This document shows positions 31,247-37,588 of a DNA stretch of 48,430 bases, piece by piece. The DNA is taken from the NCBI GenBank assembly GCA_016788705.1, contig JAEUSQ010000066.1, positions 1-48,430 on the forward strand, written 5' to 3'. Below the pieces are notes generated by a model that saw only the letters and a list, made by a program, of their open reading frames with translations, did no database searches and was not told the origin of the DNA. The DNA is from Bacteroidetes Order II. bacterium. GTDB lineage: Bacteria > Bacteroidota > Rhodothermia > Rhodothermales > UBA2364. The translations under genes and the position numbers were made by a program. Within the stretch, counting starts at the first letter, position 1. Each line of letters opens with the position of its first letter.

Positions 31247-31282
31247 AAGCCTCGCAGCATCAAATCTGCGGGGCTTTTTTTT
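31247..31282 (+). terminator. Rho-independent terminator of the exb-tonB cluster
   Basis: AAGCCTCGCAG (31247-31257) pairs with CTGCGGGGCTT (31266-31276) with one U-G pair, followed by a T tract to 31282. Confidence 0.88.
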
Positions 31283-31295
31283 AAAACTTTTTTAT

Positions 31296-31445
31296 GTGCC
31301 ATACGAGCGCGGTCATTATCAAGCCGAATGGGCGTCAGCCGTGTATAGCATTTTGCAGATTCAAAAACTGGACAGGCGTGCCGTAGATTACTATCTTGGT
31401 GAGACAAAAGTTAATATAAACCAACGACCTATACTTGATGCCTAA
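31296..31445 (+). CDS. Small protein of 49 residues, translationally overlapping the next gene
   Basis: A GTG-started ORF begins 13 bases after the tonB terminator and ends in TAA at 31443-31445, overlapping the ATG of the dehydrogenase gene (31438) by 8 bases. The peptide starts VPYERGHYQAEWASAVYS and continues with LDRRAVDYYLGET, ending QRPILDA. Codon choice and the mix of aromatic and charged residues look protein-like, and the overlap matches the tight coupling of the following genes. I do not know a family for it. It is short enough that automated gene finders may skip it. No ATG start is available in frame. Confidence 0.5.
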   Translation: MPYERGHYQAEWASAVYSILQIQKLDRRAVDYYLGETKVNINQRPILDA

Positions 31446-32391
31446 AATTGTTGTTTTAGACGGCTTTGCCCTCAATCCTGGTGACTTGTCATGGTCGTCA
31501 CTTCAAAGCCTTGGAGAGACGACTATTTACGATCGAACCATGTCATACGAGGTAGCGGAACGTTGCCAGAGCGCGGAAATTATTGTTACCAATAAAGTGC
31601 GCTTGGAAGCCGCTCTGATCAAAGCCCTTCCGCATCTGAAAGCCATTATGGTTTCGGCAACGGGCCATGATGTCGTGGATGGCTATGCGGCACAACTCCG
31701 GGGCATTCCCGTTTGCAATGTAGCGGGATATGGGCCTGATGCCGTGGCACAACACACCTTTGCGTTGTTGCTTTCGCTTATTAATCGTGTAGGAGAATAC
31801 CAGAATGATGTACAAGCAGGTGGGTGGACACAACGTGGCGATTGGTGCTATTACCTATATTACCCTATTGAATTATCCGGAAAAACAATAGGATTAATCG
31901 GATTTGGGCAAATTGCCAAGCGCGTGGCCCGCATTGCTATAGGATTTGGAATGAAGGTAGTGGCTTATACACCGCGTCCGAAGCACCACCCCTCGGTCCA
32001 TTTTTTGCCATTAGACGAGGTTTTTCAAATAAGCGATGTTGTTAGTTTGCATTGCCCTTTAACGGCCTCCAATGCAAACATGGTGAATGCAGGGCGACTT
32101 GCCCTCATGTATCCTTCTGCGTATCTTATCAACACGGCGAGGGGCGGCCTTGTGGATGAAAAGGCGCTACAGTTGGCCCTGTTTCGGAAACAAATAGCTG
32201 GTGCGGCACTCGATGTTTTGTCGGTAGAGCCTCCGCCCATAGACCATCCGTTGCTCGGCATAGAAAACTGTATCATAACCCCGCATGTTGCGTGGGCTGC
32301 ATACGAAACCCGCAAACGACTTCTTGGCCTAATGGTGGAAAATATTCGGGCATTTTTGGCTGGCAAGCCTATAAACGTAGTCAATGGATGA
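31438..32391 (+). CDS. D-2-hydroxyacid dehydrogenase, NAD(P)-dependent
   Basis: ATG 31438 gives 317 residues (a TTG precedes it at 31435). The Rossmann motif GLIGFGQIAKRVA and the segments VSATGHDVVD, AVAQHTFALLLSL, CPLTASNANMVN, LINTARGGLVDE (catalytic Arg) and ITPHVAWAA (catalytic His), with a Glu near SVEPPPIDHP, define the D-isomer-specific 2-hydroxyacid dehydrogenase family, closest in style to glycerate/hydroxypyruvate reductases. It reduces a 2-oxoacid to the D-hydroxyacid or the reverse in the cytoplasm. It overlaps the 49-residue ORF at its start, and its TGA overlaps the modA ATG as ATGA, which is unusual company for a molybdate transporter. Confidence 0.9.
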   Translation: MPKIVVLDGFALNPGDLSWSSLQSLGETTIYDRTMSYEVAERCQSAEIIVTNKVRLEAALIKALPHLKAIMVSATGHDVVDGYAAQLRGIPVCNVAGYGPDAVAQHTFALLLSLINRVGEYQNDVQAGGWTQRGDWCYYLYYPIELSGKTIGLIGFGQIAKRVARIAIGFGMKVVAYTPRPKHHPSVHFLPLDEVFQISDVVSLHCPLTASNANMVNAGRLALMYPSAYLINTARGGLVDEKALQLALFRKQIAGAALDVLSVEPPPIDHPLLGIENCIITPHVAWAAYETRKRLLGLMVENIRAFLAGKPINVVNG

Positions 32392-33089
32392 AGATTATCC
32401 ATTATTGCTTTATATCGAGTTTAGTGTGGGGAGCAGGGTGTATCCCAAAAACACCATCGCCCTTAACCGTTTCGGCAGCGGCTTCTCTTGCCGACGTGAT
32501 GACAGCGTTGGCTTCGGCATACAGCAAAGAAGCCCCGCATCAAGCCATCCGGTTAAATTTGGGCGGGAGCGGTCTTTTGGCGCGGCAGATAGAGGCCGGT
32601 GCAAAAGCAGATTTATTTATCTCGGCAGATGTGAGTTGGGTGCGTTATCTGGCGAAAATAAAAAAAATAACGATAGTTGATACCAGTTCGATCGGAAATT
32701 CCTTGGTAGTCTTTGTTCACACCAAGGGCATGACCCTTCAACATGCCAAGCGCATTGTCCTTGCAGACCCCAGGTCGGTTCCTGCGGGCCGTTACGCAAA
32801 AATGGCCTTGTCGTGTATGGGCCACTGGACCGCTCTTTCCCCCAAAATGATTCCGGTGCAAGACGTAAAAGCGGTCGTTCGCACCTTGCAACTCCGTGCG
32901 GCGGACGTCGGTTTTGCCTATGCTACCGACGTACTCCCCCATTTGATCCGAATACCGTACCCCTCAGAAAACTGTTTACCCAAGATCCGGTATGGCATTG
33001 CGGCAACCAAAGACGGTTTGGGTTTTGCACAGTTCCTTTTGTCGGACGAAGCGAAAAAAATCTGGAAGAAATATGGGTTTAACGTATGA
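32388..33089 (+). CDS. modA: Molybdate ABC transporter substrate-binding protein
   Basis: ATG 32388 overlaps the preceding TGA by 4 bases and gives 233 residues with a lipoprotein-like signal (SLVWGAGC). Family motifs are TVSAAASLADVMTALASAY, LNLGGSGLLARQIEAGAKADLFISAD, VFVHTKG, RIVLADPRSVPAGRYAK, VQDVKAVVRTLQLRAADVGFAYATDV and GLGFAQFLLSDEAKKIW. It captures molybdate (possibly tungstate) outside the inner membrane and hands it to ModB. The gene overlaps modB by ATGA as well. Confidence 0.92.
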   Translation: MKIIHYCFISSLVWGAGCIPKTPSPLTVSAAASLADVMTALASAYSKEAPHQAIRLNLGGSGLLARQIEAGAKADLFISADVSWVRYLAKIKKITIVDTSSIGNSLVVFVHTKGMTLQHAKRIVLADPRSVPAGRYAKMALSCMGHWTALSPKMIPVQDVKAVVRTLQLRAADVGFAYATDVLPHLIRIPYPSENCLPKIRYGIAATKDGLGFAQFLLSDEAKKIWKKYGFNV

Positions 33090-33727
33090 TAGATAATGAC
33101 TTGTCTTCGGTCATACTGCGTTCATTATGGGTGGCTTCTATGGCGGTAGGAGTGGGGGTGATTCCGGCGGTTTTCTGGGCCTTTCGGATGTCGCGCAAAC
33201 ACAATCTCTTCTGGGTGGTGATGGAATATTTTTTATATGTTCCAATGGTCTTTCCTCCGGTGGTCATTGGATGGTGGCTACTACAAATAAAATTTTTACA
33301 GTTTAATATTTGGGGGGCAGTGGTGGCCGCCTGTGTGGTTGCTTTTCCGTTATTAACCCAAACCATGCGGGCGGCCTTCGACCAAATAGACCCTTCATTA
33401 GAAGATGCCATGCGGGTGGATGGCGGGGGAAAATGGCCTATTTTTCGTTATTTATACCTTCCACTTGGATTGCCCGGTATGCTCGCAGGGGCGGTTTTGG
33501 CCTTTGCACGTGCCCTGGGCGAATTTGGTGCAACGATGGTGGTGGCAGGCAATATTCCCGGAGAGACCGAAACCCTGTCTCTGGCAATATATGCAAGTCT
33601 TCAACGGCCCAATGGAGAGATGTTTTTGTATCCGTTATTGTTTGCTTGTTCCCTGCTGTCTGTCGCAGCCGTATTGGTTCATGCCTTACTCCGGCAACTT
33701 ACACGAAAACGATTGGGACAGATGTAA
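33086..33727 (+). CDS. modB: Molybdate ABC transporter permease
   Basis: The 213-residue protein has about five membrane helices. It carries the permease coupling motif EDAMRVDGGGKWPIFRYLYLP and the ModB-typical ARALGEFGATMVVAGNIPGETETLSLAIY. It forms the dimeric inner-membrane channel for molybdate. The ATP-binding subunit ModC, normally the next gene, is absent; the downstream sequence is AT-rich and non-coding for 260 bases. An unlinked PotA/CysA-like ATPase lies at 41359-42351. Confidence 0.92.
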   Translation: MIDNDLSSVILRSLWVASMAVGVGVIPAVFWAFRMSRKHNLFWVVMEYFLYVPMVFPPVVIGWWLLQIKFLQFNIWGAVVAACVVAFPLLTQTMRAAFDQIDPSLEDAMRVDGGGKWPIFRYLYLPLGLPGMLAGAVLAFARALGEFGATMVVAGNIPGETETLSLAIYASLQRPNGEMFLYPLLFACSLLSVAAVLVHALLRQLTRKRLGQM

Positions 33728-33787
33728 TTCGCAACTGAACTACGCCTATATGGGGCTTAGGGTGAAAGGATGCAATGGCTTATTTGG

Positions 33788-33810
33788 AAACAAACACCAG
33801 ACGTTTGTTT
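33788..33810 (+). terminator. Possible weak terminator after modB
   Basis: AAACAAAC (33788-33795) pairs with GTTTGTTT (33803-33810) around a 7-base loop and is followed by TGTCC. The stem is AT-rich and the T tract is short, so strength is doubtful. Confidence 0.35.
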
Positions 33811-33864
33811 TGTCCAAAATCTATTAATAGCCACATAATAGGTGTAAAATAAAATTAATCTTTT

Positions 33865-33883
33865 GTAAGTGTAAGTGTAAGTG
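33865..33883 (+). repeat. Three tandem copies of GTAAGT
   Basis: A short direct hexamer repeat (three units plus one base) lies in the AT-rich gap between modB and the next gene. It may be a slippage site with variable copy number. Confidence 0.7.
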
Positions 33884-33987
33884 GTGTGGTACATATTTTA
33901 TGCAGAAGCATTATATCGTGTTCTAGACTTATTGGTTGTGACTCTAATTTATCTTTTTAGATCCCCCATTAGCCCATTATAGAAGAA

Positions 33988-34950
33988 ATGATGTACACGT
34001 TTATTCGGCCTATTTTTATTTTGCTTGTGCTTATATCGGGCCAATCGGTTGCAGTTGCTCAAAGAATCAGCCCCACTCCAACCGACTCTGTTCGTGTGGT
34101 GCGAATAGAACTAAAAGACGGATCGGTCTTGTTTGGGCAGGTCGCATCCGATGAAGGCGGGCTTTTGGTCTTGAGGTTTGCCTATGGCGAGACTTTGCGC
34201 ATTCCACATACCCTGATCATCCGGCGCGAGGTGCTTGCTCAATCGCTTTCAGGGCAAATCATCGAAATTGACCCCAACCAAACCCGTCTTCTGTTTGCGC
34301 CCACGGCGCGTCCTATTCCGAAGGGTGATGCGTATATTGCTAATTATTACCTTTTCCTGAACTTTGTGGGGTATGGAGTCACCGATCGCTTTACCATGGC
34401 GGGTGGCTTTTCCATGCTACCAGGCGCACGCATTGCCAACCAAGCCTTTTATGTTGCCCCCAAATACACCCTCTTACAACAAGAACGCCAACAAGTGGCC
34501 ATCGGACTTTGGGCGGGAGCAGCCGGATTGTCGGAATCCTCTCAGATGGTGGGCGGCATCCCTTATCTAAACTACACCCGTGGATCGGCGCAAAAATCGT
34601 TGACGCTGGCGGTGGGCTTGCCTGTCTATCGCCAAAATGAATATGAGTATGACCCCATAACCCAAAGGGATGCCCATAAGTACGTCTGGAAAGCGGGTAA
34701 AAACCTGATTACCGTACTTGGTGGCGAGCGGCAATTAGGCCGAAAAACCAAATTAGTGGGCGAGGCATGGATGTTTTGGGGCAAAGACACCCCAGCTCCG
34801 CCAGAAAACTTGTTTGTAGCCCCAGCCCTGCGGTATTACAACCAAAACTTTGCCCTCGATTTTGGTATGCTGTACATTGGCCCCTCTTCCGATATTATCG
34901 CCATTCCCTATTTAGATGTGGTCTATCACTTCCGCAAAAAACGGGAGTAG
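33988..34950 (+). CDS. Probable outer-membrane beta-barrel protein of unknown function
   Basis: The 320-residue protein has a signal peptide (about 1-25, ending VAVAQ). A small beta-rich N-terminal domain (about 36-85, VRIELKDGSVLFGQVASDEGGLLVLRF, resembling an SH3-like or LSm-like strand pattern) precedes alternating amphipathic strands to the end (YIANYYLFLNFVGYGVT, LNYTRGSAQKSLTLAVGLPVY, ALDFGMLYIG, LDVVYHFRKK). This suggests an 8-14-strand barrel. No family is recognised. It stands alone between AT-rich gaps. Confidence 0.7.
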   Translation: MMYTFIRPIFILLVLISGQSVAVAQRISPTPTDSVRVVRIELKDGSVLFGQVASDEGGLLVLRFAYGETLRIPHTLIIRREVLAQSLSGQIIEIDPNQTRLLFAPTARPIPKGDAYIANYYLFLNFVGYGVTDRFTMAGGFSMLPGARIANQAFYVAPKYTLLQQERQQVAIGLWAGAAGLSESSQMVGGIPYLNYTRGSAQKSLTLAVGLPVYRQNEYEYDPITQRDAHKYVWKAGKNLITVLGGERQLGRKTKLVGEAWMFWGKDTPAPPENLFVAPALRYYNQNFALDFGMLYIGPSSDIIAIPYLDVVYHFRKKRE

Positions 34951-35112
34951 AAAGAGTTTCCTTTATTTGTAACTTTTAGTGTTGAGGGTACTTATCTGTT
35001 AATATTTAAAGAAGTCAAAATGTTTACTTGTGAATTAATATCTAAATGGATTATCTACTAAGTACAAAAACGAAATGAATCACCACGTATCTTTAATCTT
35101 TTTTAAATAGTT

Positions 35113-35568
35113 ATGAGACTTCAAAGTTTTCTTCTGTCAACATTAATCACTTTTCTTTTTACTAATGCAGTAGCTCAATCTCAATCACCTTCCACTTCAG
35201 TTGTGACTTGGTCTGGTATTCATCCTAATGGGCAGACTTTTGGTTCTGGAGGCGGTAACATTGCAATAAGGGATCACTTAGGCAATAGAAATGTAACATT
35301 AACAGGAGGATGGCAGTGGCTAGGGGTTCCTACAGAAGCTGTTGACACGGGACATAACAGATTACGTTATCAAAGCATTTTACAAGACTTAGCAAGCCGA
35401 ATTATAGCTAACTCTACTAATAATTCTTCTGCCCCAGTGATGTTTGAAATGGAAATAGGGGTGCATTCCGTTAATGTAAATACGTCAGATTTGGCAAGCG
35501 GTGTCTATATATATCGTATTAAGACAGATTTATCATCTGTTCATAATCGTTTTACAGTTTTGAAATGA
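35113..35568 (+). CDS. Short secreted protein ending in half of a T9SS sorting domain
   Basis: The 151-residue product has a signal peptide (about 1-22, ending AVAQ), a middle part rich in Gly, Asn and Thr, and a C-terminus (GVHSVNVNTSDLASGVYIYRI, then RFTVLK) that equals the second half of a type A sorting domain. The first half, with the YPNPFNP motif and the LGQxV strand, is missing. The DNA is AT-richer than that of the neighbours. It looks like a gene shortened by an internal deletion, although it still has an open frame. Whether it is secreted by T9SS is doubtful. Confidence 0.5.
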   Translation: MRLQSFLLSTLITFLFTNAVAQSQSPSTSVVTWSGIHPNGQTFGSGGGNIAIRDHLGNRNVTLTGGWQWLGVPTEAVDTGHNRLRYQSILQDLASRIIANSTNNSSAPVMFEMEIGVHSVNVNTSDLASGVYIYRIKTDLSSVHNRFTVLK

Positions 35569-35696
35569 TTATTAGAGGTGGCTTTTAATTTTAATCTCTA
35601 AGAAATTAATAGTCACTATTTTGTTATTGGATAAGTATAGGGTAAAAATGTGTTTTAAAAAAATACTCCTACACAAAACCTTACAGTTAATTTCCC

Positions 35697-36485
35697 ATGC
35701 AACAGACACTAAACGAGCGCGTAGAGCGCGAAAAAGCCGCCCACACCGAGAAGGATGTTTTGGCGGAGAACCTACGTATCAAAAGTCGTTTTCCGCACTT
35801 AGATATCTATCCATCCAAGAAACGGTTGTTTCAAAAAATGGATGCCTATCTTGGCGCGGTAGAAGGGCTATCCGTTTTGGATTATGGCTGTGGACGCGGG
35901 GCTTTAAGCATGAAGCTCTTGAACAACCATGCACAAAAAGTTTGTGGTATTGATATTTCGGAAGTCTATATCAAAGATTGCATCGCCCAAGCAACTGCGG
36001 CAGGTTATTCGCCCCAATCGTATGATTTTCAGGTGATGGATGCACACCAACTCACGTTTCCGGATGAAAGTTTTGACTTGATTGTGGGGTATGGAATTTT
36101 GCACCACTTAGAGCCGCTCGTGGCTTTGAACGAAATTTACCGCGTGCTAAAGCCGAGAGGCCGTGTTTTATTACAAGAACCCTTAGCCGATAACCCACTG
36201 TTGCGTATTTTTAGACACTTTACTCCCGAGGCGAGGACGGAAGATGAGGCTCCTTTTACTAAAGAACAAATTCAGGAATTCATGTCTCTGAACAATTGGA
36301 AGTCTGAATGCGTCTATTGTGGACTCTTAGAAATGCCTGTTTCGATGTTTACTTCTGTGGTTATGCCCCAATCGCCCTATAATTTTTTGGTAAAAGCGGC
36401 AGATAAAATGGAATCTTGGTTTCATCGGAAAAACCTATTGTCTTCCTGGAATCAATATATCCTGCTTAATTTTGTGAAGCATTAA
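35697..36485 (+). CDS. Class I SAM-dependent methyltransferase
   Basis: The 262-residue protein has the SAM-binding motif I VLDYGCGRGALSMKLL (about 60-75), an acidic residue at the end of the next strand (VCGIDISEVY), DFQVMDAHQLTFPDESFDLIVGYGILHHL (motifs II/III) and RVLKPRGRVLLQEP, typical of the UbiE/COQ5-like Methyltransf_11 group. Its C-terminal half (about 175-262) is predicted helical. The substrate is unknown; lipid, quinone or polysaccharide methylation are all possible. No partner gene is adjacent. Confidence 0.88.
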   Translation: MQQTLNERVEREKAAHTEKDVLAENLRIKSRFPHLDIYPSKKRLFQKMDAYLGAVEGLSVLDYGCGRGALSMKLLNNHAQKVCGIDISEVYIKDCIAQATAAGYSPQSYDFQVMDAHQLTFPDESFDLIVGYGILHHLEPLVALNEIYRVLKPRGRVLLQEPLADNPLLRIFRHFTPEARTEDEAPFTKEQIQEFMSLNNWKSECVYCGLLEMPVSMFTSVVMPQSPYNFLVKAADKMESWFHRKNLLSSWNQYILLNFVKH

Positions 36486-36925
36486 AACAGGGTTTGATGG
36501 CATAGCGGAGCGACATACGAAGCAGATGCACGTATATTTTGATCCCGAAGGGACTTGATGCTTGTAGAAATTTGATGAAAGTATTGGATACGACTCCGTC
36601 GAGGTTGCATGTAGTGAAGCTTGTGCCATTGGTTATAAATTTGCACTTCGTCTAAGGATCATTCTTGGAGTGCTTTGGCCAAAGTAGATTGCTTGGTAGT
36701 GGGCATGGTAGTTGTGGCGTATGAAGTAAGTGAACCGTGAATATATAAGGCAAGGTAGGAATAAATGGCAAGCCATAATGGGTGAAAATGCTTGTTCTAA
36801 TTTGAAGAAAGTAGAGGAAGGTAATAAAGTTGGACATTTTTAGAACAGTACTTCCGTTTCTACCAATATTTTTTTGCCGCTTGCCCGCCGGTACTGTATA
36901 TTAATGATCTAAAACCTTCAATTAC
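36486..36925 (+). other. Non-coding gap with a candidate interspersed repeat
   Basis: About 440 bases without a credible ORF on either strand. The first part (36491-36611) resembles an intergenic repeat family; the rest is AT-rich with no recognised element before the TPM gene start. Confidence 0.4.
36491..36611. repeat. Candidate interspersed intergenic repeat
   Basis: This stretch contains the blocks GATCCCGAAGGGACTTGATG, CTTGTAGAAA and ACTCCGTCGAGGTTGCAT in that order, with small hairpins around CCCGAAGGG. The same block order occurs in intergenic repeats I recall from Bacteroidetes and cyanobacterial genomes. Only one copy is present in this window, so repetitiveness is not shown here. 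Confidence 0.35.
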
Positions 36926-37588
36926 ATGGCCAATATCGTTTTAACCGATACCGATTTGCAACGGGTACGTACTGCTGTTCAGCAAGCAGAATCTCGAACT
37001 TCGGGCGAGATCGTGCCTTTTATCGTAAAAAAAAGTGATGCCTATTCTAGTGCAGCGTGGCGTGCATCCGCTTTTGGAATGTTGCTGGGAGCCTTAATTG
37101 GCTTTGGACTTTCGCAGTTTAACAATACGTGGGGCCTCGGCTGGCTCTATACCAACTGGGGAGTGGTATTGTTGATGCTCCTTTTTGCTGGTGGATTTTT
37201 TGCCCTCGCTCATTTCCAAGCGGGAGTAAAGCGATTTTTTGCGGGCTATCTGGCGCTGAACAAACGGGTACAGCAACGGGCTGTTCAGGCGTTTTTGACC
37301 GAAGAGGTGTTTAATACCGAAGACCGGACGGGCATTTTGCTGTTTATCTCTTTGATGGAACACCGTATTTTGGTGATGGGGGATAGCGGCATCAATGCCA
37401 AAGTGCAACAAGAGGACTGGGAAGAGGTGGTGGCGCGTGTAAAGCGTGGAATTAAACAGAATAGTTTAGCAGACGGCTTGGTAGAAGCTATTCAAATGTG
37501 TGGAGACTTATTGGAGCGAAAAGAAGTGAAAATTAAGCCGAATGACCGCAATGAACTATCCGACGACCTGAGAATCCAAGATCATTAA
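36926..37588 (+). CDS. TPM-domain membrane protein
   Basis: The 220-residue protein starts with the first TPM-domain motif (LQRVRTAVQQAESRTSGEIVPFIV, about 11-35). Two membrane helices are inserted (about 47-65 and 76-97), and the domain completes with RTGILLFISLMEHRILVMGDSGINAKV and WEEVVARVKRGIKQ. This split arrangement is typical of TPM_phosphatase/YgcG relatives of Bacteroidota. TPM proteins have been linked to photosystem repair and membrane quality control, but the bacterial role is not known. It is a single gene. Confidence 0.85.
   Translation: MANIVLTDTDLQRVRTAVQQAESRTSGEIVPFIVKKSDAYSSAAWRASAFGMLLGALIGFGLSQFNNTWGLGWLYTNWGVVLLMLLFAGGFFALAHFQAGVKRFFAGYLALNKRVQQRAVQAFLTEEVFNTEDRTGILLFISLMEHRILVMGDSGINAKVQQEDWEEVVARVKRGIKQNSLADGLVEAIQMCGDLLERKEVKIKPNDRNELSDDLRIQDH

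Follow-up and report, generated by a model that had tools for sequence, protein, structure and literature searches.

ABC importers normally run on motors that are matched to their own permease. How is a molybdate importer energized when its genes come without such a motor? The question is raised by a locus of a Rhodothermales bacterium (GenBank assembly GCA_016788705.1, contig JAEUSQ010000066.1), where genes for a molybdate-binding protein (modA) and a molybdate permease (modB) follow a D-2-hydroxyacid dehydrogenase (HADH) gene and no gene for the ATPase subunit (modC) is found. The whole stretch of DNA that was analyzed, 48,430 nucleotides in length, is called the window below. A preliminary description of the locus had offered two answers: either the transporter borrows an ATPase, or the cluster connects the supply of an oxyanion with redox metabolism.

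Layout of the gene unit

The dehydrogenase, modA and modB genes are all intact and stand head to tail, joined by two four-base ATGA overlaps (Table 1). The preliminary description had counted four overlapping genes by including an ORF of 49 residues at the 5' end. Its eight-base overlap with the dehydrogenase gene was correctly described but does not prove that it is a gene. The GTG start sits just 3' of a terminator-like hairpin, and neither Pfam nor NCBIfam searches returned a family match. In one of two congeners (G106) the reading frame is interrupted by stops and a frame change, and in the other (G107) it is absent. Since it is broken in the one, absent from the other and without a family, the ORF was rejected as a gene and is treated as a chance occurrence. 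Judged by this conservation, the unit has three genes, not four.

Table 1. Coordinates of the features discussed. Positions refer to the window unless a contig is given.
Feature	Position	Strand	Remarks
Terminator-like hairpin and T run	31249-31284	+	Separates the unit from the tonB-like gene upstream; identified by eye
49-residue ORF	31296-31445	+	GTG start; probably not a gene; not conserved in two congeners, no family
D-2-hydroxyacid dehydrogenase, 317 aa	31438-32391	+	ATG at 31438, or TTG at 31435; first gene of the unit
modA, 233 aa	32388-33089	+	Molybdate-binding protein with lipoprotein-like N-terminus; shares ATGA with the end of the dehydrogenase gene
modB, 213 aa	33086-33727	+	Molybdate permease; shares ATGA with the end of modA
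Codons of the ModB coupling helix, residues 106-117	33401-33436	+	Asp-Gly replaces the Leu-Gly of ModC-linked ModBs
TPM-domain protein	36926-37588	+	PF04536; follows modB in the ancestral arrangement of the order
Orphan CUT/Fbp-type ABC ATPase, 330 aa	41359-42351	-	Rival candidate energizer; no permease beside it
MsmX/UgpC-like ATPase, 369 aa	C7:59218-60324		Orphan, next to a LacI-type regulator

The two junctions differ in their constancy. The overlap between the dehydrogenase gene and modA is constant at four bases in the three species of the genus. At the modA/modB junction there is a four-base overlap here, one of seven bases in G106 and none in G107, in which about 288 apparently non-coding bases (L070:7811-8098) split the two genes. 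Because the first overlap is kept in G107 despite differing upstream genes and the 288-base intrusion, the dehydrogenase and ModA are probably co-translated in this genus.

Elsewhere in the order, modAB is usually flanked by genes for a zinc-ribbon protein on the upstream side and for a TPM-domain protein on the downstream side. In most families read (L071, L073, L074, L078, L086), the protein encoded before modA combines two zinc ribbons with a membrane segment; in this genus its place is occupied by the dehydrogenase. The TPM gene lies directly 3' of modB in G106 (L069) and in most other families examined; here, an insertion of about 3 kb (33728-36925), which contains a methyltransferase and other ORFs, parts the two.

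Identity of ModA and ModB

ModA scores 121 bits against TIGR01256 (cut-off 62.5), also matches SBP_bac_11 and reaches an E-value of 2e-31 against solved molybdate-binding proteins, including Escherichia coli ModA (1amf). ModB carries the BPD_transp_1 domain; modB models rank best, the score against TIGR02141 (144.6 bits) lying below the cut-off of 182.6. An AlphaFold2 model of ModB (pLDDT 87.7) finds its best fold matches in two ModB chains, 2onk_C (Z 20.9) and 3d31_C (Z 20.4). The protein is not a member of the sugar permease family and groups with the molybdate permeases in both models and fold. As modelled, ModB is thus a molybdate permease, one that bears a sugar-permease-like coupling element.

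That molybdate is the substrate of ModAB is suggested by the similarity of ModA and by the co-occurrence with MoaA, which is present in 44 of the 46 modAB genomes of the order versus 44 of the 68 genomes without modAB. The presence of moaA in nearly all modAB genomes fits a role in molybdate uptake.

The dehydrogenase as a lineage-specific neighbour

The dehydrogenase possesses both a catalytic and an NAD-binding domain (PF00389, 2-Hacid_dh; PF02826, 2-Hacid_dh_C). It scores 341 bits against NF005069, below the cut-off of 448, and its closest solved chain is 5tx7. Only three of 114 genomes of the order encode it (E<=1e-50); all three belong to this genus, and in each of the three species the gene precedes modA. 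Among 394 sampled Bacteroidota genomes, 24 more encode a relative (E<=1e-60, at most 52% identical, the best about 50%), and in the retrieved stretches around these genes neither modA nor modB was found.

These distributions bear on the proposal that dehydrogenase and transporter form a functional unit in which molybdate supply is tied to redox metabolism. It draws on the ATGA overlap with modA, retained in three species even though the upstream genes have changed and the modA/modB junction is broken in G107. Yet the rest of the order lacks the dehydrogenase, and its relatives elsewhere do not stand beside modA or modB. No molybdoenzyme or molybdenum cofactor (Moco) gene lies within the unit, no Moco riboswitch was found, and the search for tRNAs and Rfam RNAs near the junction returned a sub-threshold match only. 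Nor was evidence found that ties the chemistry of the dehydrogenase to molybdate. The link to redox metabolism is therefore very unlikely, and a cluster of dehydrogenase and modAB genes conserved beyond the genus was rejected. The likeliest reading is that the dehydrogenase is a lineage-specific passenger, which took up its position ahead of modAB in the common ancestor of this genus. The preliminary description had named two signs of an accidental link: modA, modB and modC together in relatives, and a dehydrogenase adjacent in this genome only. The dehydrogenase link is indeed restricted, to one genus, but the relatives do not carry the three mod genes together.

Absence of modC from the genome and from most modAB genomes of the order

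No modC follows modB at the locus, and in the whole genome of 4.28 Mb no protein exceeds the TIGR02142 cut-off (best score 198 bits, cut-off 285). The missing ATPase subunit had been recognized from the window; what had been overlooked is the orphan ABC ATPase encoded on the minus strand of the same window (Table 1).

The absence is not peculiar to this genome. In a sample of 114 Rhodothermales genomes, relatives of this modB accompanied by modA occur in 46, and only two of these (G018 and G036), both with a diverged ModB, encode a canonical ModC. They are also the only ones among 31 neighbourhoods examined in which an ATPase gene adjoins modB. Across this sample, modAB without modC is a conserved trait and the rule in Rhodothermales.

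Candidate ATPases

ModB needs an ATPase of some kind, and the genome encodes five of the relevant class. Three are found beside their own permeases (C13, C38, C43), and two are orphans, one on contig C7 and one in the window.

The orphan in the window was first suspected by proximity. If it were the ModC substitute, rearrangement would have parted it from modAB. Its distance from modB is about 8 kb here and some 5 kb in G106; it has no permease alongside, and its congeneric counterparts are 95% and 84% identical. In G107, however, it is on a separate contig from modB, and it is absent from family f3, all 16 genomes of which carry modAB. The models that fit it best are those of PhnT2, PotA and FbpC, not that of modC, and it has one of six MsmX interface residues. 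Its distribution instead follows that of a fused double permease, likewise an orphan, with LGA in its coupling helices: nine of the 12 genomes examined have both and three have neither. The candidate was demoted for its absence from f3 and this co-occurrence, and its service to ModB appears unlikely. The double permease, which comes with a binding protein at C38:65067 (L190), on another contig than the ATPase, would more likely be its partner than ModB.

The orphan on C7 matches solved MsmX (6yir) over its full length (E 4e-124). With numbering by ungapped offset and the residue list of a published MsmX study (PMC7658222), all six interface residues checked are present (K74, D77, N84, R104, E110 and K154), the Pot ATPase having been left out of this comparison. 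Three CUT1 permease pairs of the same genome have no ATPase gene (C27, C65 and C7:186962; L102, L191 and L192) and apparently share the C7 ATPase. From these features, the C7 protein is likely a multitask ATPase outside Bacillota.

MsmX/UgpC-like ATPases are encoded in 42 of the 46 modAB genomes, the four that lack one being 77-88% complete. When only genomes of at least 90% completeness are considered, the ATPase is found in 37 of 37 with modAB versus 15 of the 40 good-quality genomes that lack modAB, an association that is confounded by kinship among the genomes. The occurrence of the ATPase in some genomes without modAB is expected if it also serves sugars. In G012 (four contigs, 96% complete), ModB is the sole detected BPD permease without an adjoining ATPase, and the MsmX-like protein is the sole modC-like ATPase without an adjoining permease. 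Genomes G112 and G113 likewise have no sugar permease among the matches, their remaining permease pair being PstCA-like by length.

The coupling helix of ModB

In the AlphaFold2 model, the coupling helix of ModB spans residues 103-111 and ends at D112-G113; E106-A108 and D112-G113 belong to the segment EDAMRVDGGGKW. ModB thereby carries Asp-Gly after the EAA motif, as do the CUT1 sugar permeases. A highly conserved Asp is among the predicted permease-ATPase contacts of sugar importers (PMC8603345).

A comparison of 123 ModBs, drawn from the order and from loci of a scan of bacterial genomes, revealed two kinds of protein, told apart by the residue that precedes the conserved Gly in the coupling helix. 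An adjacent ATPase accompanies 73 of 74 scoreable Leu-type ModBs, whereas 41 of the 44 scoreable non-Leu ModBs have none, a contrast to be read against a ModB tree with just about five changes of ATPase linkage, which leaves too few independent pairs for significance. The remaining three non-Leu proteins comprise two with an MsmX-like ATPase next to them and one, with Cys, that is fused to an ATPase (L244). Asp is the commonest non-Leu residue (30), followed by Tyr (13). Since some ModC-less ModBs carry Tyr, Phe, Glu or Ile in place of Asp, Asp is not required. Further non-Leu ModBs without adjacent modC were noticed in an uncultured Clostridiaceae (L313, Tyr), in Paenibacillus xylanivorans (L298, Ile) and in Chamaesiphon (L285, Asp), and are possibly additional independent cases.

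Within the genome under study, the sugar permeases read IDGC, QIDGA and AIDGC at this site, and LG is found in the permeases of the Pot, Fbp and double type. This pattern also bears on the idea that ModAB is powered by another unlinked ATPase (Pot, Fbp or C43) or by several. Oxyanion ATPases are homologous to those of the CUT type, and the genome encodes five proteins of this kind, but the Pot, Fbp and C43 ATPases adjoin permeases of their own, and the Pot and Fbp permeases have LG, not DG, in their coupling helices. Such an energizer is accordingly quite improbable.

A parallel in Bacillales

Thirteen Bacillales ModBs also possess Asp-Gly and have no ModC alongside. In two of these species, Ureibacillus galli (L275) and Lysinibacillus halotolerans (L276), the gene order is MsmX-like ATPase, modA and modB with Asp-Gly, and the ATPase is 51% identical to the C7 ATPase over its full length. 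Bacillus subtilis, used in the control set, yielded no match to modC at E<=1e-56. A published account of a Bacillus genome names modA and modB, but modC is missing from its list.

In a ModB tree built with the coupling-helix columns removed, the Bacillales stand apart from the main Rhodothermales group, which argues that the coupling-helix switch arose more than once. It is fairly probable that in at least these two distant groups ModC was lost, a sugar-type coupling helix was gained and molybdate uptake came to depend on a shared sugar ATPase. The lack of modC from the genome and the split between modA and modB in G107 could speak for a decaying transporter, non-functional without modC. Such decay is hardly credible, as both genes are undamaged and have been conserved in dozens of species, a coupling helix of the MsmX type is kept in two distant groups and moaA is retained in the genomes.

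Proposed mechanism and its implications

Several lines of sequence evidence point to the same motor, and the first of the two preliminary answers, a borrowed ATPase, is the one that finds support, modC-less modAB being usual in the order. With a probability of roughly 0.7, the ModAB importer, which has no dedicated ModC, would run on the shared MsmX/UgpC-like sugar ATPase of contig C7. In this mechanism, ModA and ModB would form a molybdate importer energized by the orphan ATPase, which would also serve the CUT1 sugar permeases of the cell that have no ATPase gene. ModB would have adapted to this motor by losing Leu-Gly from its coupling helix and gaining the Asp-Gly of sugar permeases. We infer both the physical pairing of ModB with the C7 ATPase and its energization from the sequences.

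Sharing of nucleotide-binding domains has been stated to be reported exclusively for CUT1 sugar importers (PMC7658222), so that the case of ModB would extend sharing to an oxyanion. Molybdate is unmentioned in a structural genome-wide survey of the ABC systems of B. subtilis (PMC11466899). No literature that pairs ModB with MsmX or a sugar ATPase was found in a search that left subscription journals mostly outside, and a prior mention is possible. If the proposed mechanism holds, this would be the first multitask sugar ATPase that powers an oxyanion importer, and it could couple molybdenum supply to the regulation of sugar uptake. Molybdenum-dependent nitrate metabolism would then rely on a component of sugar uptake. 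The gap in annotation that leaves modAB of Bacillales and Rhodothermales without a modC would be explained, and a short motif of the coupling helix would predict the ATPase of an orphan permease.

Comparison with known systems

The dehydrogenase resembles the PRK06487-type 2-hydroxyacid dehydrogenases (glyoxylate/hydroxypyruvate-reductase-like) over its whole length, but falls below the family cut-off and stands before modA only in this genus. With the ModABC molybdate transporters of known structure (2onk, 3d31), the system described here shares the ModA family, the ModB fold and the order modA-modB; it differs from them in that the genome is devoid of any ModC and in that the coupling helix reads Asp-Gly instead of Leu-Gly. 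The modAB loci of Bacillales, for example those of Bacillus altitudinis (L252) and U. galli (L275), are likewise modC-less and have a VDGA coupling helix. They form a separate ModB branch, however, two members of which have an adjacent MsmX-like ATPase, and the dehydrogenase is absent from them. The C7 ATPase resembles MsmX of B. subtilis in full-length similarity, orphan status, interface residues and the presence of CUT1 permease pairs without an ATPase. MsmX is known only with CUT1 sugar importers, whereas the mechanism proposed above would add a molybdate permease to the clients.
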